Shown: positions 43,062 to 57,897 of the stretch, piece by piece
How the letters are laid out: each line of letters begins with the position of its first letter
How positions within the stretch are numbered: position 1 is the first letter of the stretch
From: Mermis nigrescens
Taxonomy: Eukaryota; Nematoda; Enoplea; Mermithida; Mermithidae
DNA: 64,000 nucleotides
NCBI GenBank assembly: GCA_036768485.1
Contig: JAVLUZ010000709.1
Coordinates: 124,001-188,000, forward strand
Direction of reading: 5' to 3'
Notes under the pieces: generated by a model
The model's input: the letters and a program-made list of their open reading frames with translations, nothing else
What the model was told of the DNA's origin: nothing
The model's database searches: none
Program-made: the position numbers and the translations under genes

Positions 43062-43067
43062 TATATT
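43062..43067. repeat. left 6-bp target site duplication of the Polinton
   Basis: TATATT immediately before the element's first bases AGTAGTAAAGCCCGACC. Identical to 57892-57897. Six-bp duplications are typical of Polinton integration. Confidence 0.93.
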
Positions 43068-43087
43068 AGTAGTAAAGCCCGACCTTT

Positions 43088-43136
43088 CAGAGTCTCCGTG
43101 CTGAAGCATATACAGTGCTAAAGCATAGAGACTCTG
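43088..43136. promoter_or_regulatory. left terminal hairpin with internal repeats
   Basis: CAGAGTCTC (43088-43096) pairs with GAGACTCTG (43128-43136). Between them lie two near-identical 12-base repeats, GTGCTGAAGCAT and GTGCTAAAGCAT. Its position 20 bp from the tip suggests an integrase or replication-initiation site; that role is inferred. Confidence 0.6.
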
Positions 43137-43274
43137 TTTGGACTGACCCTGCTACTAGCGCGCTTCCTAATCCGCCCACGCATTCTTTCACAGCTAGCAA
43201 GCAACTCGCGTCGCACATGGTTTTTTATGCAACGTATGACTCGGCAAAGCGCCAAGTTGTTTTTTATATAGCAT

Positions 43275-43817: not shown

Positions 43818-43856
43818 CTTTATAGCAACACTGGCGATTAATTAGGGTGCAAGACT

Positions 43857-43864
43857 CTTATATA
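43857..43864 (-). promoter_or_regulatory. TATA box, left-arm TBP gene
   Basis: TATATAAG on the minus strand, mirror of 57095-57102. Confidence 0.8.
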
Positions 43865-43871
43865 GCCCTTA

Positions 43872-44624
43872 TTAGAAATAAGAAGGTTTAATTTTCCGAA
43901 AATGTAACTTGACAATCACTTTTCCAGAAATAAACGGAATAAATTCATCTAAATCGTCTTTAATGTTGATTTCGATACTCGAAATGTCCTTAACGAGAAT
44001 GGGGACATAGTGAGGAAAGTCGAAGGTTTTGTCGATTATCTTAGGATAGGAACCTTCAACATTTACTATGCGTAATAAGGGAGCCGACACATCTCCAACA
44101 ATTTGCGGTTCTAAAATATTTGCGTAAATGTACAATACTTCAATGCCCCCAACGTGCATGTTTGGTTCATTAACGCCCCATGCTGATTTCGTTATTTTGC
44201 CATCTTGAAACCCTAAAATTTTGGTTATCTCTGGTGGTAATGTTACTGATTTTACGAATTCACTGTACAATATTGTTTGTACTCGTTTTATCGTACTAAA
44301 GTACTTAAAAAATATTCCCTTTTTCACAATTTCGCCCCCATTTAGAAGGCAGAATTGCAACGTCTCAACAAATTCATGTATTGAGTCGTAACACCCTAGC
44401 GGTATCTTAATTACATGATCGTCGTCATCAACGTCTGTTATATGAATATCAGTTTTTTCAGTTTTTAGCGTTTCCCAATTGTGTGGGTAGATTAGCTGAC
44501 ATAGACCACATTCCCAATCTCCAGTTAACTTAATTTTTTGTGGTAAATGTACGGTAAATTCGGATGGGGTATTTTGTTTATCGCTAGCAGTGTTACTCGG
44601 TAAAGTTACATAGAATTGATCCAT
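43872..44624 (-). CDS. penton protein, left arm
   Basis: 250 residues, one substitution against 56335-57087, otherwise intact. Confidence 0.88.
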   Translation of the reverse strand: MDQFYVTLPSNTASDKQNTPSEFTVHLPQKIKLTGDWECGLCQLIYPHNWETLKTEKTDIHITDVDDDDHVIKIPLGCYDSIHEFVETLQFCLLNGGEIVKKGIFFKYFSTIKRVQTILYSEFVKSVTLPPEITKILGFQDGKITKSAWGVNEPNMHVGGIEVLYIYANILEPQIVGDVSAPLLRIVNVEGSYPKIIDKTFDFPHYVPILVKDISSIEINIKDDLDEFIPFISGKVIVKLHFRKIKPSYF

Positions 44625-45115
44625 TTTTTACACGTTTGATTAATTATAAAATCATTGTCTACTACAACTGTGCTGATCTTAAATAGACTGTTGACAAAAC
44701 CCGTCACAAAATCATCAGAAAACCTTTTGTCTAAACTTTTCATAATTAATTTCATGGGCACCTCTCTGCTCCGCCAAACCAGAAAGTATATGCATAATTG
44801 CCCACATGTAGACGTTAATGGTTGTTGTATGCATTTTTTATTATGCTTAATTTTATCAGCATACTGTAAGATGTAATTTTGCGTTTTTTCGTCAGGCGGC
44901 AGTCCGTAGCTGTCAAAATATTCGCATTCGTTCTGTGTGTTATAAAACATGCATACCCAGTGAGAACCTGGCTGAGTACTCGGATCTGTATTGATAACTA
45001 ATGCAGATGGTTTAGAAAAAATTGGCGGCAGTTTATCGCTCGGAAAAACACCAACAAAAATCGGTCTAACGGCGCAGTCACTATTTAGTGCGTTCTTTAG
45101 TTGAAAAGTATTCAT
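44606..45115 (-). CDS. adenain-type cysteine protease, left arm
   Basis: Identical protein to 55844-56353, with H52, D68 and C104 present. It lies just after the broken capsid gene. Confidence 0.92.
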   Translation of the reverse strand: MNTFQLKNALNSDCAVRPIFVGVFPSDKLPPIFSKPSALVINTDPSTQPGSHWVCMFYNTQNECEYFDSYGLPPDEKTQNYILQYADKIKHNKKCIQQPLTSTCGQLCIYFLVWRSREVPMKLIMKSLDKRFSDDFVTGFVNSLFKISTVVVDNDFIINQTCKKWINSM

Positions 45116-45117
45116 CT

Positions 45118-46429
45118 TTATGCAGTATAATCATACATTATATTGCGGTGCTTATCTAACATGATTAAATTGTCAAATTCAGCGTATACTATTACTTCTA
45201 TGCCAGTGTCAGGAATTTTTTCAGCAAATGATATTTCAATGCTTGTTGTGCCTTCTTTTATTAAATCCCAATGCCCACCGTCATCTTCATCAGGTGTTAG
45301 GTCAAAAGCAAAGAGGCATTGACCGTTTTTGAACCCTTCTCTAGTTAAGCCATTGCCTTTATTTTCTCTAGCAATATCTAGTGTCTCGAAAAGCTGATTA
45401 AACGCTCTTAAATACTTATTGTTTTTGAAATGCTAGTTTCAGTGGGTGAGAGGGGTAAGTTACGCCACCAGAAATCACTTTAACCTCGTTTATGCTGTAA
45501 GACTTAAAATTGAATGGCGACTTTTTTATATTTCCTCTGAATGCATCAGCGTCAACGCAACCAAAAATCAGACGCCTTGGAAGCTGCCCAGAGAACAATG
45601 TATTGAGTGGGGTGGATTGAGATGTACTTGAAATATGTAAACTCATCATCATCACTCTACGTATTGGATATTTAATTGTATTACTTGCTAAAACTTGTTC
45701 TATAGCTAGCGACGTGCTTTCTAGAATTTCTGCTTTGCGAACATAAAATTTAATTTGTTGTATGCTAAGATGAGCATCTAGGGCACCACCCGGACTTTCT
45801 AAAACAAATGCATCCGTATTTCTGTTTAGTTCGAGTCTTAAATCGGTGTAATTCAGCAAAAACCTATCTTGCAAAAAAAGGTCAATGTGAAGTGGGGCCA
45901 TTACTTCGACTATCGCTTTACCTTTAAAATAATGAACACGAGTTTGAAAGCCACTATTATTTTCAGAATCATGTTTAGTATCTTGTGTGTACAAGGAGGA
46001 TTGCAAATGCGAGTTTTTTGCATCCCAATTATAATTTAATTCAGTTTCTAGAAAAGCTCTGTACGCGTATTTATCGCTACTATCGTGAACTAATTTACCA
46101 TTCAAAAATAATTTTACTTGTCTGAAAAATGTTTTGCTAATCAAATTAATGGGTGCGACAGCGGGTGTGGCAGGAATTTTACCATCAGCTCCTGCTGGCA
46201 TAAGGCCAGGATTTAAAGAGAGCTGCATGTAAATGTAATTTTTATTTAGTTGTAAGAAATGAGGGTCGGGAGGTTGGTGAAATTCGTACGGACCTTCATC
46301 TGTTACTGGGTTAGTCAAATTGATTTCATCCCAATATCCTTGTTTCACAACAACCTGAGTCGGAGGTACTGTGAAAAAATCCAACTCGCTTTTTGTGCTA
46401 GCGGCTGAGATTGAATCGATTAGAGACAT
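45118..46429 (-). pseudogene. major capsid protein, left arm, frameshifted
   Basis: Mirror of 54531-55841 with an extra G at 45432 that breaks the frame after about 330 codons; the remaining third is open in another frame. A handful of residues differ otherwise (for example Q/R and S/G). Confidence 0.9.
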
Positions 46430-46591
46430 TTTTACTTCCTTTTTGTTTATGATTTGAGAATATATCATTCTTTGGTTCTTTTATAGACTTTGGTCGGACC
46501 CCCAGTCCCCGCCCTTTTTGTTGTAGCACCTCACTTGCTTGCCTAAGTAAATTCGAAGCGCCTTCCTTGCCATGCTCTTCTAAAGCCTGAA
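46398..46591 (-). pseudogene. 3' remnant of the pVI-like gene, left arm
   Basis: Only the carboxy-terminal part matching right-arm 54369-54562 survives. The glycine-rich amphipathic core and promoter are deleted. Confidence 0.8.
46478..46485 (-). promoter_or_regulatory. TATA box, left-arm capsid unit
   Basis: TATAAAAG on the minus strand, retained although the neighbouring pVI-like gene is mostly deleted. Confidence 0.75.
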
Positions 46592-46663
46592 TGTCATGTA
46601 CTTGGATGTTTCTCCCACCGCAAATTCATGCGGGACCAAAATCATTTTATTCGTGTGATTCAT
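46592..46663 (-). pseudogene. remnant of the 238-residue gene, left arm
   Basis: Only the first 24 codons remain before the 924-bp deletion junction at about 46591/46592. Confidence 0.85.
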
Positions 46664-47004
46664 CGTTTAGTTATAGCGTCTGCTAGCAATTGACCAGCTA
46701 TCCCTAATATAGGCGCCAGTAATATTGGCAAAAAACCACCTTTCTGCACTAGTAATACTTTTTTCTGCTTTATCGACCTATCCTGTGCGCTTATCTGACG
46801 GAGGTGCGATTTGTATCTGCTTAGTTTTTCAAGCTCGTGTGGTTTGACAGGAACGTTGCCGTTTAGTACATTCAGTATGCATTCGCATAAACACAATATT
46901 AATTCATTGTCAACCGTTTTCAAGATCGCCTTACGCTGATTCGGTTTCGCCTTGGCCAACACATCAAGGTACGTAATATTTTTCTGTAAACGTTTAGGAG
47001 CCAT
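46660..47004 (-). CDS. pX-like small virion protein, left arm
   Basis: 114 residues, one substitution (V for A near residue 31) against the right copy. Promoter box CTTTTATA (reverse of TATAAAAG) at 47034-47041. Confidence 0.75.
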   Translation of the reverse strand: MAPKRLQKNITYLDVLAKAKPNQRKAILKTVDNELILCLCECILNVLNGNVPVKPHELEKLSRYKSHLRQISAQDRSIKQKKVLLVQKGGFLPILLAPILGIAGQLLADAITKR

Positions 47005-47033
47005 TTTGTATATAATGATTAGAACGATAATTT

Positions 47034-47041
47034 CTTTTATA
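47034..47041 (-). promoter_or_regulatory. TATA box, left-arm pX-like gene
   Basis: TATAAAAG on the minus strand, mirror of 52995-53002. Confidence 0.75.
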
Positions 47042-47631
47042 ACTTTTCAGTGTAAACTACGCAATTTTTTGAGAATATTTTAGCACGTAGACGTAATTTA
47101 TCAGGCGTAGATTGAGTCAAATCAACTAAAAGATATGAAAACGGTTTCTGTGTTGCATCAGAATAAGCTTCTAAGAAATATTTAGGATTGTTTGGATAAA
47201 GTTGCCTAGCTAACGTTTGTGTTTGAAGTCTATCTGAAGGATTTTTCATTAAAACTAAATATTCTGCGTTTATCCTACACGTTCTTAAACCTTTGAAAAA
47301 TATGTTTTGAACAATGTGCACTACAGAAATGTTCCAGTGATGACAACCTTGTGTAAATAGTACATCATTATTTGCTTCTTTCATAAGATCGTCTATAATA
47401 ATGAGCTGGGGTTCGGAAGAGTGATCCCTTACTAGACTGAAATTGGGTGATCCTTTCACAAAAAATACATTTTCTATCTCTTCATGATCTTCAGCAAAAA
47501 AACCACCATATAAATTTTGGAGGTGGAGAAATAAAATTGGCCGCATTCTTAACGAGTTGCCTAACAAAAGTAGTTTTACCAGCTTTTGTAGGTCCTGCTA
47601 CAATGCACGTGAATGGGTGCTTAAAATCCAT
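47037..47631 (-). pseudogene. packaging ATPase, left arm, different frameshift
   Basis: Mirror of 52405-52999. A run of seven A (six in the right arm) near 47476-47482 shifts the frame between the Walker A and Walker B motifs. The carboxy part is open from 47567 to 47037. Confidence 0.88.
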
Positions 47632-47681
47632 GTTTAATAATAGAAACATTGCTGATAAAGTCTAATATACATGAAGCTCAC

Positions 47682-47747
47682 TTAGCCAGCTGCTTGCACA
47701 GCTGCCCAGCCTGCGGGACGTGGACCCGGAGCTTCTTTGCAAGCCAT
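47682..47747 (-). CDS. 21-residue small ORF, left arm
   Basis: Identical peptide to 52289-52354, in a region where nearby untranslated sequence does show length differences between the arms. Confidence 0.4.
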   Translation of the reverse strand: MACKEAPGPRPAGWAAVQAAG

Positions 47748-47809
47748 TTTTTTGGTTTGTTTTTTAATTTTTAAATCTTTTTTTCAATTTCAAATTTAAA
47801 AAAAACATT

Positions 47810-47817
47810 CTTATACA
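47810..47817 (-). promoter_or_regulatory. TATA-like box, left-arm small ORF/ATPase unit
   Basis: TGTATAAG on the minus strand. Confidence 0.5.
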
Positions 47818-48198
47818 GATAAGTTATCAGACGTATCCATTATTCGCTTAATTTCGAAGTTAATTGCACTTTCGCCTCGGGAAAATCCAAAATAACTTCG
47901 ATTCAAAGCACAAGTTTTGCCACATTTTGTAAAACAGACTGGTTTGAAAATTATGCGCCTGACATTCTAGATTTAGCGCAAAAATCCAAAAACCGCGCAT
48001 TTTGCGTTTTCCACTCAACCTATTTTCAGCATTGTGATCCGCTGCTTCTTGCTTCCAGTATTGTTTGTAATTTTCAGAGAAACGATTCCAAAAATATGAT
48101 GCTACGCGCGCCAACTCGCTGTTGTCGTACTGCCCGTAGCAGAATTTTGCGACCAGCCGTTCGCAGAAGCTTACGAAAAGTTTTTCGCCTTGAAACAT
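47811..48198 (-). pseudogene. unknown 128-residue protein, left arm, frameshifted near the end
   Basis: One extra base at about 47877 changes the last 20 or so residues and ends the frame at 47860. The rest matches 51836-52222. Confidence 0.75.
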
Positions 48199-48240
48199 GA
48201 CTGCTCAGTACCGGATGGCAATAACTGGGAGAGGTAGGGT

Positions 48241-48248
48241 CTTATATA
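48241..48248 (-). promoter_or_regulatory. TATA box, left-arm 128-residue gene
   Basis: TATATAAG on the minus strand, mirror of 51786-51793. Confidence 0.75.
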
Positions 48249-48251
48249 GAC

Positions 48252-48647
48252 TTATTGAACTAAAAATGGTGGGGTTTTTTCTGGTTCAGTGCCCATTTGC
48301 TTACTTTCAGCAACTTGACGACTTAGGACTACGCATCCTGCCTCCTGCGTCGCCCTATTGTACTCTACGCATTTTGGGCACATTTGAAGCGAAAAGTACA
48401 TTCGACCAGAATCTGTTACAAAGCAGTCTCTCTCTGAGCTACTTTTTTGACAAAAATAGCAAAGTTCGATCATAAGAGGGTACATGGGGCGCGGCAGGTT
48501 ACGGGCACACAATTCAATAGGAGGTCTAATACTCCTACCGAATGGGCGCCTATCTTCGACAGTAATTTTAGGCTTAACTTCGGAAGGTTTTTCCATTTTA
48601 ATTTCGGATGGTTTCTCTATTGTTCTTACTTCAGAAAGTTTCTCCAT
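48252..48647 (-). CDS. CxxC zinc-binding protein, left arm
   Basis: Residue-for-residue identical to the right-arm copy at 51387-51782, with its own TATATAAG box at 48682-48689. Confidence 0.75.
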   Translation of the reverse strand: MEKLSEVRTIEKPSEIKMEKPSEVKPKITVEDRRPFGRSIRPPIELCARNLPRPMYPLMIELCYFCQKSSSERDCFVTDSGRMYFSLQMCPKCVEYNRATQEAGCVVLSRQVAESKQMGTEPEKTPPFLVQ

Positions 48648-48681
48648 TATTTTATTTTATATATTTTTTTATCTCAGAGTT

Positions 48682-48689
48682 CTTATATA
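48682..48689 (-). promoter_or_regulatory. TATA box, left-arm CxxC gene
   Basis: TATATAAG on the minus strand, mirror of 51345-51352. Confidence 0.75.
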
Positions 48690-48692
48690 AAC

Positions 48693-49064
48693 TTAAATTT
48701 TTATGAGATGATTCACCCAGCTATTGAATTTTTCAGGAAAACCTCTCCATTTCACAAAATATTCAGTTTTTCCAGACTTTTTACGCGTTTTTAGAATTTT
48801 CTCAATAACATAGACATTGTCAATTAATTCAACCTTTTGCAATTCGGGTTCATAAAAGACTCCCTCCAATTTTTCGCCCGACTGATCTTTAATTACATAG
48901 ACTGGTGGTTTTCTTTTAAATCGGCTTTTTATTACAAATGTTTCTTCACTCCAATTTGGTTCATAGCCCTTTTCAAAAACACCCTTCACTTTAGTTATAC
49001 GTACCTTATCACCAATGTTGTACCTAAAAGTGACGTCCGCTTGTATTAATTTTGAAAGCTTTAT
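48693..49064 (-). CDS. integrase tail and chromodomain, shifted frame, left arm
   Basis: Mirror of 50970-51341, with two residue differences (FK versus LQ) before the chromodomain. It carries the same frame break relative to the integrase core. Confidence 0.83.
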   Translation of the reverse strand: MKLSKLIQADVTFRYNIGDKVRITKVKGVFEKGYEPNWSEETFVIKSRFKRKPPVYVIKDQSGEKLEGVFYEPELQKVELIDNVYVIEKILKTRKKSGKTEYFVKWRGFPEKFNSWVNHLIKI

Positions 49065-49719
49065 TTAAAATAATTAATTCATTATCAGCATTTACATTAG
49101 CTGGCTCTATCCCTATTGTGCGATGCTTTGTATTATTATAGCCAGTTACTAAGTCTTGCAGTACATCAATGTATCTATATTTGTTGTTTTTTGTGAAATA
49201 TCGCCACATGCGTTCCTTTAACGTTCGATTAAAGCGTTCAACAATGGACGCCTTTAGTTCGCTATTTATCGTAAAAAATTCTACATTATTTTCCTCGAGA
49301 AATTTCTGAAACTGTTTGTTGACAAATTCTTTACCAGCATCACCTTGTATTTTCTCCGGCTTACGTCCGCCTTCTAATATTGCTTTGAATGCATTTATTA
49401 TAGCCTCGACGGTTTTATTTTTTACAGGTATACTCCAAGCGTACTTACTAAACACATCTATGCAATTGAATAAAAATGCGTAGCCATCGTTATGTTTTTT
49501 TATTGACTGTAAGTCGGCCAAGTCTATGGCCCATTGTTCATCAATCCTAGAGACTATTACTTTATTACGCGCGTATTTTTTGCGAGCTGGCTTATGCAGT
49601 GTGTAAGTTGGCTGAGTCTCTAGCCATTTTATTACCGCTTTCTTGTTTAGCTTAGCTTTTTCAACTAGTGGACCTGCGCCTGTATACCCCGTTTTCGGCT
49701 CATAATAAATAGTTTCCAT
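49024..49719 (-). CDS. Polinton integrase catalytic part, left arm
   Basis: Mirror copy of 50315-51010 with the same D66, D127 and E161 and the same in-frame stop before the chromodomain. The residue before D127 is glycine instead of serine. The other differences are V/A, I/V and K/T. Confidence 0.9.
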   Translation of the reverse strand: METIYYEPKTGYTGAGPLVEKAKLNKKAVIKWLETQPTYTLHKPARKKYARNKVIVSRIDEQWAIDLADLQSIKKHNDGYAFLFNCIDVFSKYAWSIPVKNKTVEAIINAFKAILEGGRKPEKIQGDAGKEFVNKQFQKFLEENNVEFFTINSELKASIVERFNRTLKERMWRYFTKNNKYRYIDVLQDLVTGYNNTKHRTIGIEPANVNADNELIILNKAFKINTSGRHF

Positions 49720-49722
49720 TGC

Positions 49723-50112
49723 TTAATAGAAATATAGCGCGTGTTTACCTTTTGCGACTGCACAATACCTAGAAGAGCACTTTTCGCAAAACTTTACGTC
49801 AATTTTCAAGTTTATATGATTTCGAACGACTTTTAATTTACAATCGTTGCATTCCACTGCAAAGCTTATATCTTTTGGAGTGGGTCGAGGTCCATCTACA
49901 TCTTCTAAATAATAGTACAGCATGTATTTATTCTTTTTAATTACATTGAGTTCGCCAGAGCATTTTGTGCACAGTGAAAATGTGAAACCTAGAAAATTTT
50001 CATCATTTTTGATTTTGAGGATGCAATCGTTGCATCCTGGCTCAAAGAATCTACACCATCTGCGCAGAAAATGCTCTGGCGAAGTCAATGTAATTAAAAA
50101 GAATAAATACAT
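49723..50112 (-). CDS. zinc-binding protein, left-arm reading, crosses the palindrome centre
   Basis: 129 codons. Two cysteine modules of identical layout, CxxC-17-CxxC: C27/C30/C48/C51 and C88/C91/C109/C112, both opening CNDC. They look like tandem zinc ribbons of unknown role. The first about 18 residues come from antisense right-arm sequence, so the true amino terminus has been lost and the start codon is fortuitous. The stop lies 3 bases before the integrase ATG, so the two were probably co-transcribed. This arm keeps both modules. Confidence 0.6.
   Translation of the reverse strand: MYLFFLITLTSPEHFLRRWCRFFEPGCNDCILKIKNDENFLGFTFSLCTKCSGELNVIKKNKYMLYYYLEDVDGPRPTPKDISFAVECNDCKLKVVRNHINLKIDVKFCEKCSSRYCAVAKGKHALYFY
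49975..50059. other. unpaired centre of the palindrome
   Basis: 85 bases with no inverted partner. The middle holds a 9-bp stem AGGATGCAA/TTGCATCCT with a 3-base loop (50018-50038). The innermost 34 bases of the flanking arms have three mismatches, more than the rest of the arms. In the left-arm direction the loop encodes the CNDC and CTKC pairs of the zinc-binding protein. Confidence 0.85.
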
Positions 50113-50113
50113 G

Positions 50114-50311
50114 CTGTACTATTATTTAGAAGATGTAGATGGACCTCGACCCACTCCAAAAGATATAAGCTTTGCAGTGGAATGCAACGATTGTAAATTA
50201 AAAGTCGTTCGAAATCATATAAACTTGAAAATTGACGTAAAGTTTTGCGAAAAGTGCTCTTCTAGGTATTGTGCAGTCGCAAAAGGTAAACACGCGCTAT
50301 ATTTCTATTAA
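50114..50311 (+). pseudogene. zinc-binding protein, right-arm copy, 5'-truncated
   Basis: Mirror of the carboxy-terminal part of the left-arm protein. It keeps only the second CNDC-17-CEKC module. An open frame extends back to 49922, but those codons run through the loop and antisense left-arm sequence, so they are not original. Co-linear with the integrase, three bases downstream. Confidence 0.55.
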
Positions 50312-50314
50312 GCA

Positions 50315-51010
50315 ATGGAAACTATTTATTATGAGCCGAAAACGGGGTATACAGGCGCAGGTCCACTAGTTGAAAAAGCTAAGCTAAACAAGAAAGCGGT
50401 AATAAAATGGCTAGAGACTCAGCCAACTTACACACTGCATAAGCCAGCTCGCAAAAAATACGCGCGTAATAAAGTAATAGTCTCTAGGATTGATGAACAA
50501 TGGGCCATAGACTTGGCCGACTTACAGTCAATAAAAAAACATAACGATGGCTACGCATTTTTATTCAATTGCATAGATGTGTTTAGTAAGTACGCTTGGA
50601 GTATACCTGTAAAAAATAAAACCGCCGAGGCTATAATAAATGCATTCAAAGCAATATTAGAAGGCGGACGTAAGCCGGAAAAAATACAAAGCGATGCTGG
50701 TAAAGAATTTGTCAACAAACAGTTTCAGAAATTTCTCGAGGAAAATAATGTAGAATTTTTTACGATAAATAGCGAACTAAAGGCGTCCGTTGTTGAACGC
50801 TTTAATCGAACGTTAAAGGAACGCATGTGGCGATATTTCACAAAAAACAACACATATAGGTACATTGATGTACTGCAAGACTTAGTAACTGGCTATAATA
50901 ATACAAAGCATCGCACAATAGGGATAGAGCCAGCTAATGTAAATGCTGATAATGAATTAATTATTTTAAATAAAGCTTTCAAAATTAATACAAGCGGACG
51001 TCACTTTTAG
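50315..51010 (+). CDS. Polinton integrase catalytic part (DDE), right arm
   Basis: 231 residues of a retrovirus-like (rve) integrase that inserts the element into host DNA. The catalytic set is visible: D66 in WAIDLADLQ, D127 in SDAGKEF and E161 in VVERFNRTLKER. It belongs to the F54H12.3-type integrases found in Polintons. The frame stops at TAG (51008), but a frame shifted by +1 is open from 50970 and encodes the missing tail and chromodomain to 51341. The overlap (50970-51007) would allow a +1 shift. The left arm has the same break. Only 4 residues differ between arms. No TATA box is found upstream because the promoter side is lost at the palindrome centre. Confidence 0.9.
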   Translation: METIYYEPKTGYTGAGPLVEKAKLNKKAVIKWLETQPTYTLHKPARKKYARNKVIVSRIDEQWAIDLADLQSIKKHNDGYAFLFNCIDVFSKYAWSIPVKNKTAEAIINAFKAILEGGRKPEKIQSDAGKEFVNKQFQKFLEENNVEFFTINSELKASVVERFNRTLKERMWRYFTKNNTYRYIDVLQDLVTGYNNTKHRTIGIEPANVNADNELIILNKAFKINTSGRHF

Positions 51011-51341
51011 GTACAACGTTGGTGATAAGGTTCGCATAAGTAAAGTGAAAGGTGTTTTTGAAAAGGGCTATGAACCAAATTGGAGTGAAGAAACATTTGT
51101 AATAAAAAGCCGATTACAAAGAAAACCACCAGTCTATGTAATTAAAGATCAGTCGGGCGAAAAATTGGAGGGAGTCTTTTATGAACCCGAATTGCAAAAG
51201 GTTGAATTAATTGACAATGTCTATGTTATTGAGAAAATTTTAAAAACGCGTAAAAAGTCTGGAAAAACTGAATATTTTGTGAAATGGAGAGGTTTTCCTG
51301 AAAAATTCAATAGCTGGGTGAATCATCTCATAAAAATTTAA
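50970..51341 (+). CDS. integrase C-terminal region with chromodomain, +1 frame, right arm
   Basis: Open from 50970 to the stop at 51341 without needing an ATG. It reads ADVTFRYNVGDKVRIS, a typical integrase tail, then a chromodomain at the end (IEKILKTRKKSGKTEYFVKW, RGFP, SW). Chromodomains on Polinton integrases are thought to guide insertion to particular chromatin. It is best read as the second half of the integrase, reached by frameshifting or cut off by an old mutation. Confidence 0.85.
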   Translation: MKLSKLIQADVTFRYNVGDKVRISKVKGVFEKGYEPNWSEETFVIKSRLQRKPPVYVIKDQSGEKLEGVFYEPELQKVELIDNVYVIEKILKTRKKSGKTEYFVKWRGFPEKFNSWVNHLIKI

Positions 51342-51344
51342 GTT

Positions 51345-51352
51345 TATATAAG
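51345..51352 (+). promoter_or_regulatory. TATA box, CxxC protein gene
   Basis: TATATAAG, 42 bp before the ATG at 51387. Confidence 0.75.
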
Positions 51353-51386
51353 AACTCTGAGATAAAAAAATATATAAAACAAAATA

Positions 51387-51782
51387 ATGGAGAAACTTTC
51401 TGAAGTAAGAACAATAGAGAAACCATCCGAAATTAAAATGGAAAAACCTTCCGAAGTTAAGCCTAAAATTACTGTTGAAGATAGGCGCCCATTCGGTAGG
51501 AGTATTAGACCTCCTATTGAATTGTGTGCCCGTAACCTGCCGCGCCCCATGTACCCTCTTATGATCGAACTTTGCTATTTTTGTCAAAAAAGTAGCTCAG
51601 AGAGAGACTGCTTTGTAACAGATTCTGGTCGAATGTACTTTTCGCTTCAAATGTGCCCAAAATGCGTAGAGTACAATAGGGCGACGCAGGAGGCAGGATG
51701 CGTAGTCCTAAGTCGTCAAGTTGCTGAAAGTAAGCAAATGGGCACTGAACCAGAAAAAACCCCACCATTTTTAGTTCAATAA
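51387..51782 (+). CDS. CxxC zinc-binding protein, right arm
   Basis: 131 residues, function unknown. The amino third is a charged repeat (KPSEIKMEKPSEVKPK). The rest has one cysteine module, C63/C66 and C90/C93 (CYFC-23-CPKC), resembling the paired ribbons of the neighbouring zinc-binding protein. Preceded by TATATAAG 42 bp upstream. Identical in both arms, which suggests the arms separated recently or that this gene is under constraint. Confidence 0.75.
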   Translation: MEKLSEVRTIEKPSEIKMEKPSEVKPKITVEDRRPFGRSIRPPIELCARNLPRPMYPLMIELCYFCQKSSSERDCFVTDSGRMYFSLQMCPKCVEYNRATQEAGCVVLSRQVAESKQMGTEPEKTPPFLVQ

Positions 51783-51785
51783 GTC

Positions 51786-51793
51786 TATATAAG
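51786..51793 (+). promoter_or_regulatory. TATA box, 128-residue gene
   Basis: TATATAAG, 50 bp before the ATG at 51836. Confidence 0.77.
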
Positions 51794-51835
51794 ACCCTAC
51801 CTCTCCCAGTTATTGCCATCCGGTACTGAGCAGTC

Positions 51836-52222
51836 ATGTTTCAAGGCGAAAAACTTTTCGTAAGCTTCTGCGAACGGCTGGTCGCAAAATTCTGCTACGG
51901 GCAGTACGACAACAGCGAGTTGGCGCGCGTAGCATCATATTTTTGGAATCGTTTCTCTGAAAATTACAAACAATACTGGAAGCAAGAAGCAGCGGATCAC
52001 AATGCTGAAAATAGGTTGAGTGGAAAACGCAAAATGCGCGGTTTTTGGATTTTTGCGCTAAATCTAGAATGTCAGGCGCATAATTTTCAAACCAGTCTCT
52101 TTTACAAAATGTGGCAAAACTTGTGCTTTGAATCGAAGTTATTTTGGATTTTCCCGGGCGAAAGTGCAATTAACTTCGAAATTAAGCGAATAATGGATAC
52201 GTCTGATAACTTATCTGTATAA
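51836..52222 (+). CDS. unknown Polinton protein, 128 residues, right arm
   Basis: Not recognised. Rich in aromatic residues and lysine (YFWNRFSENYKQYW, FWIF). The helical YFWNRF-YKQYWKQEA stretch is faintly like an HMG box, too weak to call. A TATATAAG box lies 50 bp upstream. The stop codon overlaps the next promoter (TGTATAAG, 52216-52223). Confidence 0.65.
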   Translation: MFQGEKLFVSFCERLVAKFCYGQYDNSELARVASYFWNRFSENYKQYWKQEAADHNAENRLSGKRKMRGFWIFALNLECQAHNFQTSLFYKMWQNLCFESKLFWIFPGESAINFEIKRIMDTSDNLSV

Positions 52223-52223
52223 G
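52216..52223 (+). promoter_or_regulatory. TATA-like box, small ORF/ATPase unit
   Basis: TGTATAAG followed by AA. One base off the others; 73 bp before the small ORF ATG. Confidence 0.55.
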
Positions 52224-52288
52224 AATGTTTTTTTTATAAATTTGAAATTGAAAAAAAAGATTTAAAAATTAAAAAACAAACCAAAAAA

Positions 52289-52354
52289 ATGGCTTGCAAA
52301 GAAGCTCCGGGTCCACGTCCCGCAGGCTGGGCAGCTGTGCAAGCAGCTGGCTAA
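52289..52354 (+). CDS. 21-residue small ORF, right arm
   Basis: ATG with an AAAAAAATGG context begins a peptide MACKEAPGPRPAGW followed by AAVQAAG and TAA. It lies between the 128-residue gene and the ATPase, with TGTATAAG 73 bp upstream, and is identical in both arms. It could be a real minor protein, an upstream ORF controlling the ATPase, or the first exon of it. No family recognised. Confidence 0.4.
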   Translation: MACKEAPGPRPAGWAAVQAAG

Positions 52355-52404
52355 GTGAGCTTCATGTATATTAGACTTTATCAGCAATGTTTCTATTATT
52401 AAAC

Positions 52405-52999
52405 ATGGATTTTAAGCACCCATTCACGTGCATTGTAGCAGGACCTACAAAAGCTGGTAAAACTACTTTTGTTAGGCAACTCGTTAAGAATGCGGCCAAT
52501 TTTATTTCTCCACCTCCAAAATTTATATGGTGGTTTTTTGCTGAAGATCATGAAGAGATTGAAAATGTATTTTTTGTGAAAGGATCACCCAATTTCAGTC
52601 TAGTAAGGGATCACTCTTCCGAACCCCAGCTCATTATTATAGACGATCTTATGAAAGAAGCAAATAATGATGTACTATTTACACGAGGTTGTCATCACTG
52701 GAACATTTCTGTAGTGCACATTGTTCAAAACATATTTTTCAAAGGTCTTAAGAACGTGTAGAATAAACGCAGAATATTTAGTTTTAATGAAAAATCCTTC
52801 AGATAGGCTTCAGATGCAAACGTTAGCTCGACAACTTTATCCAAACAATCTTAAATATTTTTTAGAAGCTTATTCTGATGCAACAGAGACACCGTTTTCG
52901 TATCTTTTAGTTGATTTGACTCAATCTACACCTGATAAATTACGTCTACGTGCTAAAATATTCTCAAAAAATTGCGTAGTTTACACTGAAAAGTTATAA
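52405..52999 (+). pseudogene. FtsK/HerA-type packaging ATPase, right arm, one frameshift
   Basis: Genome-packaging ATPase of the Polinton/adintovirus type. The Walker A motif GPTKAGKT is at residues 13-20, Walker B LIIIDD at 76-81, followed by HHWNISVVHIVQNIFF. The start at 52405 (MDFKHPFTCIVAGPT) is preferred over the ATG at 52387, as the family starts near this phrase. An extra C at about 52746 breaks the frame after the Walker B half. The remaining half is open in another frame to 52999. The left arm lacks this insertion but has a different one. Confidence 0.88.
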
Positions 53000-53002
53000 A
53001 AG
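52995..53002 (+). promoter_or_regulatory. TATA box, pX-like gene
   Basis: TATAAAAG, 37 bp before the ATG at 53032. Overlaps the ATPase stop. Confidence 0.77.
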
Positions 53003-53031
53003 AAATTATCGTTCTAATCATTATATACAAA

Positions 53032-53376
53032 ATGGCTCCTAAACGTTTACAGAAAAATATTACGTACCTTGATGTGTTGGCCAAGGCGAAACCGAATCAG
53101 CGTAAGGCGATCTTGAAAACGGCCGACAATGAATTAATATTGTGTTTATGCGAATGCATACTGAATGTACTAAACGGCAACGTTCCTGTCAAACCACACG
53201 AGCTTGAAAAACTAAGCAGATACAAATCGCACCTCCGTCAGATAAGCGCACAGGATAGGTCGATAAAGCAGAAAAAAGTATTACTAGTGCAGAAAGGTGG
53301 TTTTTTGCCAATATTACTGGCGCCTATATTAGGGATAGCTGGTCAATTGCTAGCAGACGCTATAACTAAACGATGA
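53032..53376 (+). CDS. adenovirus pX-like / membrane-active small virion protein, right arm
   Basis: 114 residues. A basic, helical amino part with CLCECILNVLNGNVP is followed by a lysine-rich linker and a hydrophobic tail GGFLPILLAPILGIAG (about residues 89-104) ending in KR. Polintons and adintoviruses commonly encode this type of protein, likened to adenovirus core or membrane-lytic peptides; the exact role is inferred. TATAAAAG lies 37 bp upstream. Its stop overlaps the next ATG (ATGA), so the pair is probably translated from one message. One residue differs from the left copy. Confidence 0.75.
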   Translation: MAPKRLQKNITYLDVLAKAKPNQRKAILKTADNELILCLCECILNVLNGNVPVKPHELEKLSRYKSHLRQISAQDRSIKQKKVLLVQKGGFLPILLAPILGIAGQLLADAITKR

Positions 53377-54089
53377 ATCACACGAATAAAATGATTTTGG
53401 TCCCGCATGAATTTGCGGCGGGAGAAACATCCAAGTACATGACAGATCTGGATCATGAAATGCTAAGAATCGTACGCGATGATTCTGTACCTATTGATGC
53501 TAAAATTTTACAGTATAACCAAATCTTACGTAGGTATCAAATAATGAAGCAAAATATTGAAAAACCGTTTCAGTTAGAAATCAAGGATAGTGAGCAAAAA
53601 GTGGAACAAAATGCAGAAGATGCGATATTCAAAACAGTACCGCACAAATGGCACAAAAATGCTCTATTGCTACTAAAATATGCCCGCGAAAATCCCCATA
53701 TTAAATGGTCGGACAAGGGTGAAATGATTGTTGATGGGAATAAAATTGTGGGTTCAAATATCGTAGATTTAATTAACGATTTTTCACGGACGAGTAAGTC
53801 TAAGCCGGCTACTGGAGCTGACATTTTTCTGCAAAAATTGATGGAAGAAAATGTGCCAAAATCAACAATAATAAATAAGAATCGTCTAAACTTAATGACT
53901 AAAAAAGATGTTTATGTATCACCCGATATGTCTACTCCCGCCTCTCGTGCACAAAGTGTATCATCCGATATGTCTACTCCCGCCCCTACAAGAGCTCGTA
54001 CACAAAGTACACCGGAAGAACCACCAACGCCACCTAGAAGACCTCGTACGCGTAGTTTGCTAAAATCGTGGGCGAAAATAAGTCTATAA
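53373..54089 (+). CDS. unknown Polinton protein, 238 residues, right arm
   Basis: Function unknown. The middle (HKWHKNALLLLKYARENPH, IKWSDKGEMIVDGNKIVGSN) looks like a folded domain. The carboxy end is disordered, with two SPDMSTP/SSDMSTP repeats and an Arg/Pro-rich tail (TPPRRPRTRS) that could contact DNA. The start overlaps the previous stop by four bases; a second ATG at 53391 is possible. The left arm keeps only the first 24 codons. Confidence 0.7.
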   Translation: MNHTNKMILVPHEFAAGETSKYMTDLDHEMLRIVRDDSVPIDAKILQYNQILRRYQIMKQNIEKPFQLEIKDSEQKVEQNAEDAIFKTVPHKWHKNALLLLKYARENPHIKWSDKGEMIVDGNKIVGSNIVDLINDFSRTSKSKPATGADIFLQKLMEENVPKSTIINKNRLNLMTKKDVYVSPDMSTPASRAQSVSSDMSTPAPTRARTQSTPEEPPTPPRRPRTRSLLKSWAKISL

Positions 54090-54092
54090 AAG
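54085..54092 (+). promoter_or_regulatory. TATA box, pVI-like gene
   Basis: TATAAAAG in the context AGTCTATAAAAGAA, 40 bp before the ATG at 54125. Overlaps the preceding stop codon. The same 14-base context recurs at the capsid promoter. Confidence 0.77.
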
Positions 54093-54124
54093 AAATGCAT
54101 GCACTTTATGTACGTATACAAAAA

Positions 54125-54562
54125 ATGCGTCAACAATTTAATCCAGAAAATTTTAACATTTGGCTAGACTATTACGCCGACCAAGCCTCACAGGTTGGGT
54201 ACGGCATGATAGGATTCAAGGGAACTCCATACCAGAGAGGGGCGGGCTTGGGTAATTTTTTTCGATCCCTGTTTCGAATGGCTATCCCACTAATTAAATC
54301 AGCTGGCAAACAGGCTCTAGCATCTGGAGCACATGTAGCTGCTGATGTGCTGCATGGCAGGCCGGTCATTCAGGCTTTAGAAGAGCATGGCAAGGAAGGC
54401 GCTTCGAATTTACTTAGGCAAGCAAGTGAGGTGCTACAACAAAAAGGGCGGGGACTGGGGGTCCGACCAAAGTCTATAAAAGAACCAAAGAATGATATAT
54501 TCTCAAATCATAAACAAAAAGGAAGTAAAAATGTCTCTAATCGATTCAATCTCAGCCGCTAG
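54125..54562 (+). CDS. pVI-like minor virion protein, right arm
   Basis: About 145 residues from the ATG at 54125 (an earlier in-frame ATG is at 54095). The start at 54125 is chosen because the TATAAAAG box at 54085-54092 is then 40 bp upstream, like the other genes; 54095 would lie too close to it. The core GYGMIGFKGTPYQRGAGLGN followed by FFRSLFRMAIPLIKSAG is a glycine-rich amphipathic segment typical of Polinton pVI-like proteins, thought to act in membrane disruption and capsid maturation. It overlaps the capsid promoter and start. Confidence 0.72.
   Translation: MRQQFNPENFNIWLDYYADQASQVGYGMIGFKGTPYQRGAGLGNFFRSLFRMAIPLIKSAGKQALASGAHVAADVLHGRPVIQALEEHGKEGASNLLRQASEVLQQKGRGLGVRPKSIKEPKNDIFSNHKQKGSKNVSNRFNLSR
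54475..54482 (+). promoter_or_regulatory. TATA box, capsid-protease-penton unit
   Basis: TATAAAAG in the context AAAGTCTATAAAAGAA, 56 bp before the ATG at 54531. Lies inside the pVI-like gene. Confidence 0.77.
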
Positions 54563-55841
54563 CACAAAAAGCGAGTTGGATTTTTTCACAGTACCTCCGA
54601 CTCAGGTTGTTGTGAAACGAGGATATTGGGATGAAATCAATTTGACTAACCCAGTAACAGATGAAGGTCCGTACGAATTTCACCTACCTCCCGACCCTCA
54701 TTTCTTACAACTAAATAAAAATTACATTTACATGCAGCTCTCTTTAAATCCTGGCCTTATGCCAGCAGGAGCTGATGGTAAAATTCCTGCCACACCCGCT
54801 GTCGCACCCATTAATTTGATTGGCAAAACATTTTTCAGACAAGTAAAATTATTTTTGAATGGTAAATTAGTTCACGATAGTAGCGATAAATACGCGTACA
54901 GAGCTTTTCTAGAAACTGAATTAAATTATAATTGGGATGCAAAAAACTCGCATTTGCAATCCTCCTTGTACACACAAGATACTAAACATGATTCTGAAAA
55001 TAATAGTGGCTTTCAAACTCGTGTTCATTATTTTAAAGGTAAAGCGATAGTCGAAGTAATGGCCCCACTTCACATTGACCTTTTTTTGCAAGATAGGTTT
55101 TTGCTGAATTACACCGATTTAAGACTCGAACTAAACAGAAATACGGATGCATTTGTTTTAGAAAGTCCGGGTGGTGCCCTAGATGCTCATCTTAGCATAC
55201 AACAAATTAAATTTTATGTTCGCAAAGCAGAAATTCTAGAAAGCACGTCGCTAGCTATAGAACAAGTTTTAGCAAGTAATACAATTAAATATCCAATACG
55301 TAGAGTGATGATGATGAGTTTACATATTTCAAGTACATCTCAATCCACCCCACTCAATACATTGTTCTCTGGGCAGCTTCCAAGGCGTCTGATTTTTGGT
55401 TGCGTTGACGCTGATGCATTCAGAGGAAATATAAAAAAGTCGCCATTCAATTTTAAGTCTTACAGCATAAACGAGGTTAAAGTGATTTCTGGTGGCGTAA
55501 CTTACCCCTCTCACCCACTGAAACTAGATTTCAAAAACAATAAGTATTTAAGAGCGTTTAATCAGCTTTTCGAGACACTAGATATTGCTAGAGAAAATAA
55601 AGGCAATGGCTTAACTAGAGAAGGGTTCAAAAACGGTCAATGCCTCTTTGCTTTTGACCTAACACCTGATGAAGATGACGGTGGGCATTGGGATTTAATA
55701 AAAGAAGGCACAACAAGCATTGAAATATCATTTGCTGAAAAAATTCCTGACACTGGCATAGAAGTAATAGTATACGCTGAATTTGACAATTTAATCATGT
55801 TAGATAAGCACCGCAATATAATGTATGATTATACTGCATAA
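54531..55841 (+). CDS. major capsid protein (double jelly roll), right arm
   Basis: 436 residues from the ATG at 54531 (SLIDSISAASTKSELDFF). An upstream in-frame ATG at 54492 is only 17 bp from the TATAAAAG box, so it would probably not be in the message. The sequence is of the F54H12.2 type, identified as the Polinton major capsid protein with two jelly-roll domains: an early PPTQVVVKRGYWDEINL, then FFRQVKLFLNGKLVHDSS and YAYRAFLETELNYNWDAK. It forms the icosahedral shell with the penton protein. The protease ATG lies two bases after its stop, so they are likely co-transcribed. Intact in this arm. Confidence 0.92.
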   Translation: MSLIDSISAASTKSELDFFTVPPTQVVVKRGYWDEINLTNPVTDEGPYEFHLPPDPHFLQLNKNYIYMQLSLNPGLMPAGADGKIPATPAVAPINLIGKTFFRQVKLFLNGKLVHDSSDKYAYRAFLETELNYNWDAKNSHLQSSLYTQDTKHDSENNSGFQTRVHYFKGKAIVEVMAPLHIDLFLQDRFLLNYTDLRLELNRNTDAFVLESPGGALDAHLSIQQIKFYVRKAEILESTSLAIEQVLASNTIKYPIRRVMMMSLHISSTSQSTPLNTLFSGQLPRRLIFGCVDADAFRGNIKKSPFNFKSYSINEVKVISGGVTYPSHPLKLDFKNNKYLRAFNQLFETLDIARENKGNGLTREGFKNGQCLFAFDLTPDEDDGGHWDLIKEGTTSIEISFAEKIPDTGIEVIVYAEFDNLIMLDKHRNIMYDYTA

Positions 55842-55843
55842 AG

Positions 55844-56353
55844 ATGAATACTTTTCAACTAAAGAACGCACTAAATAGTGACTGCGCCGTTAGACCGATT
55901 TTTGTTGGTGTTTTTCCGAGCGATAAACTGCCGCCAATTTTTTCTAAACCATCTGCATTAGTTATCAATACAGATCCGAGTACTCAGCCAGGTTCTCACT
56001 GGGTATGCATGTTTTATAACACACAGAACGAATGCGAATATTTTGACAGCTACGGACTGCCGCCTGACGAAAAAACGCAAAATTACATCTTACAGTATGC
56101 TGATAAAATTAAGCATAATAAAAAATGCATACAACAACCATTAACGTCTACATGTGGGCAATTATGCATATACTTTCTGGTTTGGCGGAGCAGAGAGGTG
56201 CCCATGAAATTAATTATGAAAAGTTTAGACAAAAGGTTTTCTGATGATTTTGTGACGGGTTTTGTCAACAGTCTATTTAAGATCAGCACAGTTGTAGTAG
56301 ACAATGATTTTATAATTAATCAAACGTGTAAAAAATGGATCAATTCTATGTAA
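55844..56353 (+). CDS. adenain-type cysteine protease, right arm
   Basis: 169 residues of the adenovirus protease/Ulp1 clan, which matures capsid proteins. The catalytic set is in order: H52 in GSHWVCMFYN, D68 in YFDSYG, Q97/Q98 in IQQPLTS and C104 in TSTCGQLC. The length is a little below adenain. It starts two bases after the capsid stop and overlaps the penton gene by 19 bases, and it has no TATA box of its own. Identical in the two arms. Confidence 0.92.
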   Translation: MNTFQLKNALNSDCAVRPIFVGVFPSDKLPPIFSKPSALVINTDPSTQPGSHWVCMFYNTQNECEYFDSYGLPPDEKTQNYILQYADKIKHNKKCIQQPLTSTCGQLCIYFLVWRSREVPMKLIMKSLDKRFSDDFVTGFVNSLFKISTVVVDNDFIINQTCKKWINSM

Positions 56354-57087
56354 CTTTACCGAGTAACACTGCTAGCGATAAACAAAATACCCCATCCGAA
56401 TTTACCGTACATTTACCACAAAAAATTAAGTTAACTGGAGATTGGGAATGTGGTCTATGTCAGCTAATCTACCCACACAATTGGGAAACGCTAAAAACTG
56501 AAAAAACTGATATTCATATAACAGACGTTGATGACGACGATCATGTAATTAAGATACCGCTAGGGTGTTACGACTCAATACATGAATTTGTTGAGACGTT
56601 GCAATTCTGCCTTCTGAATGGGGGCGAAATTGTGAAAAAGGGAATATTTTTTAAGTACTTTAGTACGATAAAACGAGTACAAACAATATTGTACAGTGAA
56701 TTCGTAAAATCAGTAACATTACCACCAGAGATAACCAAAATTTTAGGGTTTCAAGATGGCAAAATAACGAAATCAGCATGGGGCGTTAATGAACCAAACA
56801 TGCACGTTGGGGGCATTGAAGTATTGTACATTTACGCAAATATTTTAGAACCGCAAATTGTTGGAGATGTGTCGGCTCCCTTATTACGCATAGTAAATGT
56901 TGAAGGTTCCTATCCTAAGATAATCGACAAAACCTTCGACTTTCCTCACTATGTCCCCATTCTTGTTAAGGACATTTCGAGTATCAAAATCAACATTAAA
57001 GACGATTTAGATGAATTTATTCCGTTTATTTCTGGAAAAGTGATTGTCAAGTTACATTTTCGGAAAATTAAACCTTCTTATTTCTAA
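56335..57087 (+). CDS. minor capsid (penton) protein, single jelly roll, right arm
   Basis: 250 residues of the Polinton penton family, which fills the vertices of the capsid. The opening FYVTLPSNTASDKQNTPSEF followed by LPQKIKLTGDWECGLCQLIY is the family signature. The carboxy part ends in beta-rich ISGKVIVKLHFRKIKPSYF. Its start is inside the protease gene, so it probably shares the capsid transcript. One residue differs between arms (K here, E in the left). Confidence 0.88.
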   Translation: MDQFYVTLPSNTASDKQNTPSEFTVHLPQKIKLTGDWECGLCQLIYPHNWETLKTEKTDIHITDVDDDDHVIKIPLGCYDSIHEFVETLQFCLLNGGEIVKKGIFFKYFSTIKRVQTILYSEFVKSVTLPPEITKILGFQDGKITKSAWGVNEPNMHVGGIEVLYIYANILEPQIVGDVSAPLLRIVNVEGSYPKIIDKTFDFPHYVPILVKDISSIKINIKDDLDEFIPFISGKVIVKLHFRKIKPSYF

Positions 57088-57094
57088 TAAGGGC

Positions 57095-57102
57095 TATATA
57101 AG
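57095..57102 (+). promoter_or_regulatory. TATA box, TBP gene
   Basis: TATATAAG, 47 bp before the ATG at 57142, directly after the penton stop. TBP could act on its own promoter. Confidence 0.8.
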
Positions 57103-57141
57103 AGTCTTGCACCCTAATTAATCGCCAGTGTTGCTATAAAG

Positions 57142-57684
57142 ATGGCTACGATACAAAACGTCGTTTCGAGCGCTCGGCTTTCAGCCAAATTGCTAGATTT
57201 GTACAAGATTGCTAAAATTTGTGAAGGAGTTGAGTACGATCATAAACGATTCAATGCAATGATAATACGAATTAAGGAACCAAAAGCTACGGGTCTGCTG
57301 TTTAGCTCGGGAAAGCTAGTATGCGTTGGTGCGAAAAGCGTGGCTGAAAATAAAATGGCGAATGAAAAAATTTGCGAACTTTTGCGAAAAAGCGGCTACA
57401 AAATACAAGTCACTAATCTTCGCATACACAATATCGTTGGTTCGGGCAAAGTTGGCGCGAAGATAAACTTAACTTCGCTCGCCAACACACACAAAAAAAT
57501 CGTAGAATACGAGCCTGAATTATTTCCAGGGCTAAAACTCGCATTTGCCGATAGCAAGGCAACAGCCTTAATATTTACAAGCGGAAAAATTGTAGTTACT
57601 GGGCTAAAAACTGAAGCTCAGCTGCATAGGTTTTATAAAAAAGTAATATTTCTGCTCGACATGTTCAAGACAACTGGCGCCTGA
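57142..57684 (+). CDS. TATA-binding protein (TBP core), right arm
   Basis: 180 residues forming essentially only the saddle-shaped DNA-binding core of TBP, the factor that recognises TATA boxes and nucleates transcription. Two direct repeats are visible: FNAMIIRIKEPKATGLLFSS with GKLVCVGAKS, and EYEPELFPGLKLAFADSKA with LIFTSGKIVVTGLKTEAQ. The four phenylalanines that wedge into the minor groove in known TBPs are at F37, F54, F128 and F145. The long variable amino-terminal arm of animal TBPs is absent. It has its own TATATAAG box 47 bp upstream and is the last gene before the tip. One residue differs from the left copy. TBP is not a standard Polinton gene; capture from a host or large virus is inferred. 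Confidence 0.93.
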   Translation: MATIQNVVSSARLSAKLLDLYKIAKICEGVEYDHKRFNAMIIRIKEPKATGLLFSSGKLVCVGAKSVAENKMANEKICELLRKSGYKIQVTNLRIHNIVGSGKVGAKINLTSLANTHKKIVEYEPELFPGLKLAFADSKATALIFTSGKIVVTGLKTEAQLHRFYKKVIFLLDMFKTTGA

Positions 57685-57822
57685 ATGCTACATAAAAAAC
57701 AACTTGGCGCTTTGCCGAGTCATACGTTGCATAAAAAACCATGTGCGACGCGAGTTGCTTGCTAGCTGTGAAAGAATGCGTGGGCGGATTAGGAAGCGCG
57801 CTAGTAGCAGGGTCAGTCCAAA
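57685..57822. other. subterminal non-coding region of the right arm
   Basis: Between the TBP stop and the terminal hairpin. Contains two direct ACATAAAAAAC/GCATAAAAAAC repeats (57690-57741) and a CTTGGCGCTTTGCCGAG imperfect stem. Mirrored at 43137-43274. Confidence 0.5.
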
Positions 57823-57871
57823 CAGAGTCTCTATGCTTTAGCACTGTATATGCTTCAGCACGGAGACTCTG
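57823..57871. promoter_or_regulatory. right terminal hairpin with internal repeats
   Basis: Mirror of 43088-43136. CAGAGTCTC (57823-57831) and GAGACTCTG (57863-57871) enclose ATGCTTTAGCAC (57833-57844) and ATGCTTCAGCAC (57850-57861). Confidence 0.6.
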
Positions 57872-57891
57872 AAAGGTCGGGCTTTACTACT

Positions 57892-57897
57892 TATATT
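57892..57897. repeat. right 6-bp target site duplication of the Polinton
   Basis: TATATT immediately after GGTCGGGCTTTACTACT. Matches 43062-43067 exactly. Confidence 0.93.

Follow-up and report, generated by a model that had tools for sequence, protein, structure and literature searches.

To our knowledge, the canonical gene set of Polintons and Mavericks does not include a TATA-binding protein (TBP). Adintoviruses are defined by an rve integrase with a C-terminal chromodomain (PMC11071296), and term counts over the available main text of PMC11071296 and PMC11071308 return neither TATA nor TBP. Some large DNA viruses do carry TBP-like genes, as a sequence-only reading of the locus studied here had noted. 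According to the available portions of these sources, mirusviruses encode TBP, with a core gene cluster present in 59% of mirusvirus genomes versus 0% of Nucleocytoviricota (PMC10132985), mirusvirus-like elements integrated in the alga Cymbomonas have sporadic TBP genes (PMC10675990), and a viral TBP occurs together with a viral TFIIB in Megavirus chilensis and CpV-BQ1 (PMC11464507, PMC12085832). The authors of PMC12085832, in the part of the text available, propose that the TBP and TFIIB of CpV-BQ1 redirect the host RNA polymerase to viral genes. The same reading had placed TBP outside the known Polinton, Maverick and adintovirus gene set, and our search of the open-access literature, whose limited coverage leaves room for a prior mention, found no report of a TBP in any of the three. 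The accessible main text of the Mermis nigrescens genome paper (PMC10989877) contains no mention of Polinton, Maverick or virus.

The window analyzed here is a 64,000-nucleotide stretch of the M. nigrescens assembly (contig JAVLUZ010000709.1, positions 124,001 to 188,000). It contains a Polinton-type element at 43068..57891 that bears a TBP gene at both of its ends. We hypothesize, with a probability of roughly two in three, that this self-encoded TBP recruits host TFIIB and RNA polymerase II to the promoters of the element and that TBP is a bona fide and long-established gene of a Polinton-type lineage. Elsewhere in the window, a Mo25-like exon at 11444-12079 (E 4.8e-22) is ordinary host sequence.

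The right-arm TBP gene (57142..57684, forward strand) encodes 180 amino acids, is intronless, and consists of the core only, without an N-terminal extension. It had been described as a complete TBP core with both repeats and all four DNA-wedging phenylalanines, and this description holds: the open reading frame contains two PF00352 stretches (E 2e-47; 159.4 bits against a cut-off of 22.9 bits), a match that rules out a chance open reading frame at this position, and its top PDB match, spanning residues 3-178, is a TBP. The phenylalanines are F37, F54, F128 and F145, which we take to be the intercalating residues of TBP. The left-arm gene (43275..43817, reverse strand) differs by one base and one residue (Ser to Pro) and is also open, in agreement with the claim that the gene is intact in both arms. 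In each arm TBP is the last recognized gene, 207 nt inside the terminal-repeat end, and a TATATAA box (57095..57101, forward strand) stands 47 nt before the right-arm ATG. The gene lies inside the target-site duplications with its own TATA box, as had been stated.

The target-site duplication, TATATT, adjoins the terminal repeat on the left (43062..43067) and on the right (57892..57897); the flanks are AT-rich, and this 6-bp match was chosen for abutting the repeats. The ends of the element start AGTAGTAAAG, the beginning of the terminal repeat. About 200 nt of the right end after TBP (57685..57891, forward strand) recur at the other end of a full-length sister copy on C49 as a terminal inverted repeat. 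The window copy is a palindrome of two right arms, whose alignment consists mainly of one block of 3531 nt at 99.7% identity and another of 3387 nt at 98.7%. Between the arms lies an unpaired centre of 85 nt (49975..50059), the apparent fold-back junction, with a 15-bp inverted match on both sides. The left arm has no counterpart of 53445-54366, so most of p239 and part of the putative minor capsid gene are missing from it, and its capsid match carries two in-frame stops, whereas the right-arm match is open. A Cys-rich open reading frame with repeated Cys-pair motifs (49723-50118 and 49916-50311) occupies the palindrome centre directly before the integrase. Neither open reading frame nor Pfam searches recognized a polymerase gene in the window copy, which is an inverted dimer of the right arm. 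We infer that it arose when a displaced strand folded back and was copied; such an origin would account for the TBP at both ends of the element. An outward-facing pair of capsid and TBP genes is also found in a different element family (C51:9200607-9213479), and inverted dimers may recur in the M. nigrescens genome.

Reading outward from the centre on the forward strand, the right arm encodes ten recognized or conserved genes that end in TBP. The first is an rve integrase with a chromodomain (50312..51341; E 2e-13 and 5.9e-10; two overlapping frames in the window copy). It is followed by a small conserved Cys-pair protein (51378..51782), zinc-ribbon-like and without a match among PDB sequences, that adjoins TBP in other element families. 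The IVa2/A32-like packaging ATPase (52375..52999), again in two overlapping frames in the window copy, rests on weak Pfam matches, of which the IVa2 match is at its cut-off and the A32 match is under its cut-off. Next come the conserved open reading frames p128 (52990..53376) and p239 (53370..54089), and a putative minor capsid protein (54056..54562), a label of convenience for a protein without a Pfam match. The double jelly roll-like major capsid protein (54531..55841) is below the Pfam cut-off (20 bits versus 27) and has 803 database relatives, with PF21738 present in 6 of the 120 that were listed. An adenovirus-type cysteine protease (Peptidase_C5, 55829..56353; Pfam E 1.1e-7) and a putative penton gene (56335..57087), likewise named for convenience, with no Pfam match but 85 database homologues, precede TBP. 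Rfam gave no match. The rve integrase, the protease, the terminal repeats and the 6-bp target-site duplication uphold the identification of a Polinton-type element. A sister copy on C49 measures 13.8 kb between its terminal repeats (5654613-5668418), and its flanks, TTTGCG and TTTACG, agree at 5 of 6 bases. Polymerase matches (PF03175) in open frames of 1092-1322 amino acids occur on C49, C47 and C93, 5.7-6.9 kb upstream of the capsid gene, the frame on C49 being the one of 1092 amino acids.

TBP is found far beyond the window copy. We searched the M. nigrescens assembly (523,963,438 bases in 860 contigs) with three element TBPs and with the Pfam model, taking from every search the best 150 of 2076-2552 candidates. 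Two of the resulting lists, which do not overlap, put element-type TBP at no fewer than 300 distinct places, some of them broken; one host TBP gene was recognized, at a separate locus and with introns. A capsid search returned 96 scored matches, of which 72, counting both window arms, reach at least 70% identity and 24 are at 61%. Among the TBP matches listed, counted on the same strand within 4 kb of the capsid gene, a TBP lay 0.8-2.5 kb downstream of 59 of the 72, in 52 of these cases 1275-1338 nt from the capsid gene, versus 4 of 1224 when capsid positions were moved by 20-100 kb. All 12 capsid matches at 99-100% identity have a TBP about 1.3 kb downstream. Thirteen of the 72 capsid matches have no listed TBP, and on direct reading three of them (C75, C29 and C19) carry a broken one. 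None of the 24 members of the 61% group has a downstream TBP among the matches listed; in 19 of them, on the list of another of the searches, a TBP in antisense orientation precedes the capsid gene by 2046-2063 nt (control 0/408). A check for TBP in related elements had been proposed, and all eight other elements fetched and read directly, from different capsid identity bands, carry the gene, intact in C44, C68 and C61 and broken in C75, C29, C19, C153 and C59, as does a contig from another source described below (L061).

The surroundings of these genes vary. The Cys-pair protein lies beside TBP in L003, L033, L039, L040 and L041, and TBP lies downstream of distant capsid genes (24-28% identity) in L036 and L038. 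For L032, L034 and L035, searches with the proteins of the window element brought up no element gene besides TBP; in L032 there is another, partial TBP match, and L035 contains a reverse-transcriptase RNase H open reading frame. F-box open reading frames adjoin element-type TBP at L033:5524-6408, with a polymerase fragment close by, and at L032:6264-7166. The Cys-pair protein is conserved in L003, L033, L031, L037, L040 and L061, has a TATA box in all five copies tested, and is possibly a second transcription factor. At L044 (G000:C44:2930120-2935000) the putative penton is 95.6% identical to that of the window, whereas the protease and TBP are only about 70% identical, a disparity that suggests exchange between element families.

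The position of TBP at the very tip had also been pointed out, and this stands for the window element and some sister copies. It does not extend to the whole family, because no terminal repeat was recognized in five of the nine sister right ends fetched (C51, C520, C192, C47 and C307), and a rule that TBP generally adjoins the terminal repeat, true of only four of the nine, was dropped. The repeat is present at full length in C49, over 60-63 nt in C629 and C44, where in C44 it follows TBP by about 0.9 kb, and over 30 nt in C93. In the other five, the sequence ceases to resemble the window at the TBP stop codon or no more than about 20 nt from it. C51 and C520 share one continuation unlike that of the window and C192 and C47 share another (L064/L065, L067/L069), which we read as right ends swapped or interrupted between subfamilies. 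TBP bends DNA, and the abutment of the gene on the terminal repeat in the window copy and C49 would suit a DNA-bending factor for replication, integration or packaging that has no part in transcription. We consider this role very unlikely, given the five right ends where no repeat was found just after TBP, the internal and antisense position of the gene in the other arrangement, and the retention of TFIIB-contact residues.

Relatives outside the genome were also found. A scan of GTDB with the capsid alignment gave 78 candidate stretches and one confirmed locus, L061, an 11,589-base contig filed under a Planctomycetota MAG. Because it encodes a Polinton gene set, the contig is probably mis-binned. 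Its genes are the Cys-pair protein, TBP, ATPase, p128, p239, integrase, putative penton, minor capsid, capsid and protease. The TBP (Pfam E 2.1e-45) is antisense and immediately beside the ATPase, as in the antisense Mermis elements, with the integrase and penton elsewhere in the order. Two metagenomic TBPs on short contigs (P0001 and P0002) are 54-56% identical to the window protein. INPHARED phages yielded no match to the L061 capsid. Scans of IMG/VR, a collection that apparently contains few eukaryotic viruses of this type, confirmed no relative, and no conclusion is drawn from this blank because an alignment of mostly cellular TBPs drew a blank there too.

Is the gene simply a captured host TBP? 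We addressed the origin of the element TBPs with a tree of 43 sequences, rooted on nine archaeal-type ones and leaving out the near-duplicates L019 and L026. Mirusviruses, giant viruses and TRF proteins are not represented in it; most archaeal-type sequences, like P0004 and P0077, were assigned by look and not by name, and the groups tested were chosen after a first tree. One clade (support 99/92) unites the 15 TBPs of cellular eukaryotes, that of the host among them, and within it the host exons (L001, L002) group with the TBP of the nematode Aphelenchoides (99/95). The window TBP, L044, P0001 and P0002 form a clade (100/97) outside the cellular one, and the antisense-type TBPs with their relatives, and L061, are outside it as well; the branches of L061 (0.86) and P0003 (0.84) are long and could exaggerate depth. 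If one element copy had recently captured host TBP, or carried a processed host pseudogene, this would explain an intronless gene for a clearly eukaryotic-type protein. We regard such an origin as exceedingly improbable and count it as ruled out: grouping the window clade with the host and nematode TBPs is rejected (p-AU 3.9e-5), as is grouping all element TBPs with the host (p-AU 0.0186), the host gene is separate and intron-bearing, and element-type TBPs occur at hundreds of places, many of them divergent, and in L061 from another source. The comparison with host TBP that had been called for thus contradicts a recent host pseudogene.

Whether the element lineages gained TBP once or several times is a different matter, one that concerns origin and is compatible with a self-encoded transcription factor in either case. 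Several independent captures serving the same role, with the two gene positions as separate acquisitions, are a serious possibility to which we give somewhat less than even odds. The gene occurs in two positions and on two strands, either following the putative penton or, in antisense, next to the ATPase, and the best tree puts window-type and antisense-type TBPs on separate branches. However, the data do not reject a single clade for the element TBPs (p-AU 0.135), and with 58-61% identity between the capsid proteins of the two types, a move of the TBP gene is possible.

A comparison of synonymous and non-synonymous change, also among the checks proposed, indicates that the element TBPs are under purifying selection during the evolution of the elements. 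In 4 of 10 pairs dS is below 1, and the NG86 values of dN/dS in these four (0.102/0.76, 0.035/0.222, 0.072/0.399 and 0.175/0.735) correspond to ratios of 0.13-0.24, with YN00 giving about 0.09-0.27. Five other pairs have dS of 1.2-3.5 and dN of 0.17-0.25, and for the window gene against L044 dS was not computable.

What the protein keeps and what it loses can be seen across 18 element-type TBPs, 15 from the genome together with L061 and the two metagenomic ones. The four phenylalanines are retained in all 18, apart from one F to Y, and the stirrup E-x-E is present in all 18; the second-repeat asparagine is Leu or Met in 7. For segment boundaries, and for what residues and faces do (E-x-E as the TFIIB contact, H2 as the regulatory face), we follow published TBP work. 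Mean identity of the element TBPs to host TBP, set against the mean for 12 other eukaryotes, is 0.62 versus 0.86 in S3-S4, 0.63 versus 0.91 in the second stirrup, 0.47 versus 0.80 in S1, 0.36 versus 0.92 in the first stirrup/S2 and 0.29 versus 0.82 in H1. It falls to 0.17 versus 0.69 in H2 and 0.16 versus 0.50 in H2', segments that, like H1', are more variable in ordinary TBPs also (0.51, 0.69 and 0.50 for H1', H2 and H2'). Because the DNA-contacting first stirrup/S2 has diverged and 7 of the 18 are without the second-repeat asparagine, the DNA preference of the element TBPs may differ.

Promoter sequences agree with a role in transcription. The motif TATA[AT]A occurs at -60..-25 of the start codon in 12 of 14 element TBP genes, although the L035 instance is a TA microsatellite and should be discounted; shuffled bases gave a mean of 1.4 and a maximum of 6 in 2000 rounds, neighboring windows 0-1 of 14, and the overlapping -35..0 window 3 of 14. 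The motif is absent before the TBP starts of L003, L038, L007 and L061. At other element gene starts it occupies the same interval in 28 of 53 cases, versus 3, 3, 0 and 2 in upstream control windows, 0, 6 and 0 in downstream ones, and 14 in the overlapping -35..0 window. By gene, it precedes the Cys-pair protein in every copy tested, p128 in 8/8, the minor capsid gene in 6/8, the ATPase in 4/8, the putative penton in 3/7 and the integrase in 2/7; p239 (0/7) and the protease (0/3) have none at -60..-25, and the capsid start, in the window copy only, has a TATA box at -56. Because the sequences tested are partly related, and the element DNA is AT-rich, we use these counts as supporting evidence only.

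A TBP that keeps E-x-E and has a diverged H2 would equally suit a squelching competitor, one that acts mainly against the host by competing for TFIIB or host TATA boxes and so damps host or antiviral transcription, with the element genes themselves using host TBP. Against this stand the purifying selection on the protein and the constant spacing of TATA boxes ahead of element genes, among them the TBP gene, and we think it unlikely.

We therefore return to a TBP that serves the element's own promoters. We propose that its core would bind the TATA boxes before element genes, that of its own gene included, and, through its conserved C-terminal stirrup, would pass the promoter to host TFIIB and RNA polymerase II. 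Given the divergence of helix H2 and of much of the convex face, it is probably less responsive to the host regulators TFIIA, TAF1, NC2 and Mot1. A TBP insulated in this manner would let element genes be transcribed when host TBP is limiting or restrained, and positive feedback through the TATA box of the TBP gene would constitute autoregulation; in this sense the element may control its own transcription, as had been suggested from its gene content. A self-encoded factor is supported by the gene's residence in the elements and its recurrent conservation, by the purifying selection and the residues retained, and by the placement of TATA boxes; the protease and p239 starts without TATA boxes, the diverged first stirrup and the broken TBP in five of the eight elements read speak against it. 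Going further, we tentatively suggest, as an idea we would not lean on, that TBP-bearing Polintons are a distinct viral lineage of a nematode and other hosts that acquired TBP before the sampled diversity of eukaryotic TBPs and now uses it as an initiation factor, insulated from host regulators, for its own TATA promoters.

The presence of TBP in hundreds of copies, and in a related element elsewhere, suggests that these small elements probably bring a part of the basic transcription machinery with them. It would be surprising for a 14-kb element in an animal genome to have a general transcription factor among its regular genes, since viral TBPs are otherwise found, in the available text of the sources, in mirusviruses and giant viruses, which have many genes (PMC10132985, PMC11464507, PMC12085832). 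These elements make it testable how a small virus or transposon gains hold of transcription initiation. They also offer a natural series of TBPs in which the phenylalanines and TFIIB contacts are apparently kept and the regulatory face is shed, and a convenient marker for a viral-transposon lineage that goes unmentioned in the literature searched.

With Polintons/Mavericks and adintoviruses the window element shares the rve integrase with chromodomain, the adenovirus-type protease, a putative packaging ATPase and a putative double jelly-roll-like capsid, the B-type polymerase (matches in sister copies), terminal repeats starting with AG and a 6-bp duplication; unlike them, it carries a TBP. 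It has the integrase with C-terminal chromodomain that characterizes adintoviruses, a likeness drawn from description. Compared with cellular TBP and TBPL2, the element protein has the same two repeats, four phenylalanines and TFIIB stirrup, but it is core only, intronless, about 38-47% identical, diverged in H2, and outside the cellular clade. Giant viruses, again by description, are large and have several transcription genes, whereas the window element has a TBP and no recognized TFIIB or RNA polymerase. The Cymbomonas elements are integrated, viral and TBP-bearing like ours, although in the available text their authors found no double jelly-roll capsid, polymerase or packaging ATPase (PMC10675990). 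Mirusviruses (Mirusviricota) resemble the window element, by description only, in having TBP, but according to the same text they have HK97-fold capsids and genomes measured in hundreds of kilobases (one of 431.5 kb) and are not Polintons (PMC10675990). Viral TBP is thus known from mirusviruses and giant viruses, and a TBP in a Polinton-type element is, within the literature searched, what is new here.
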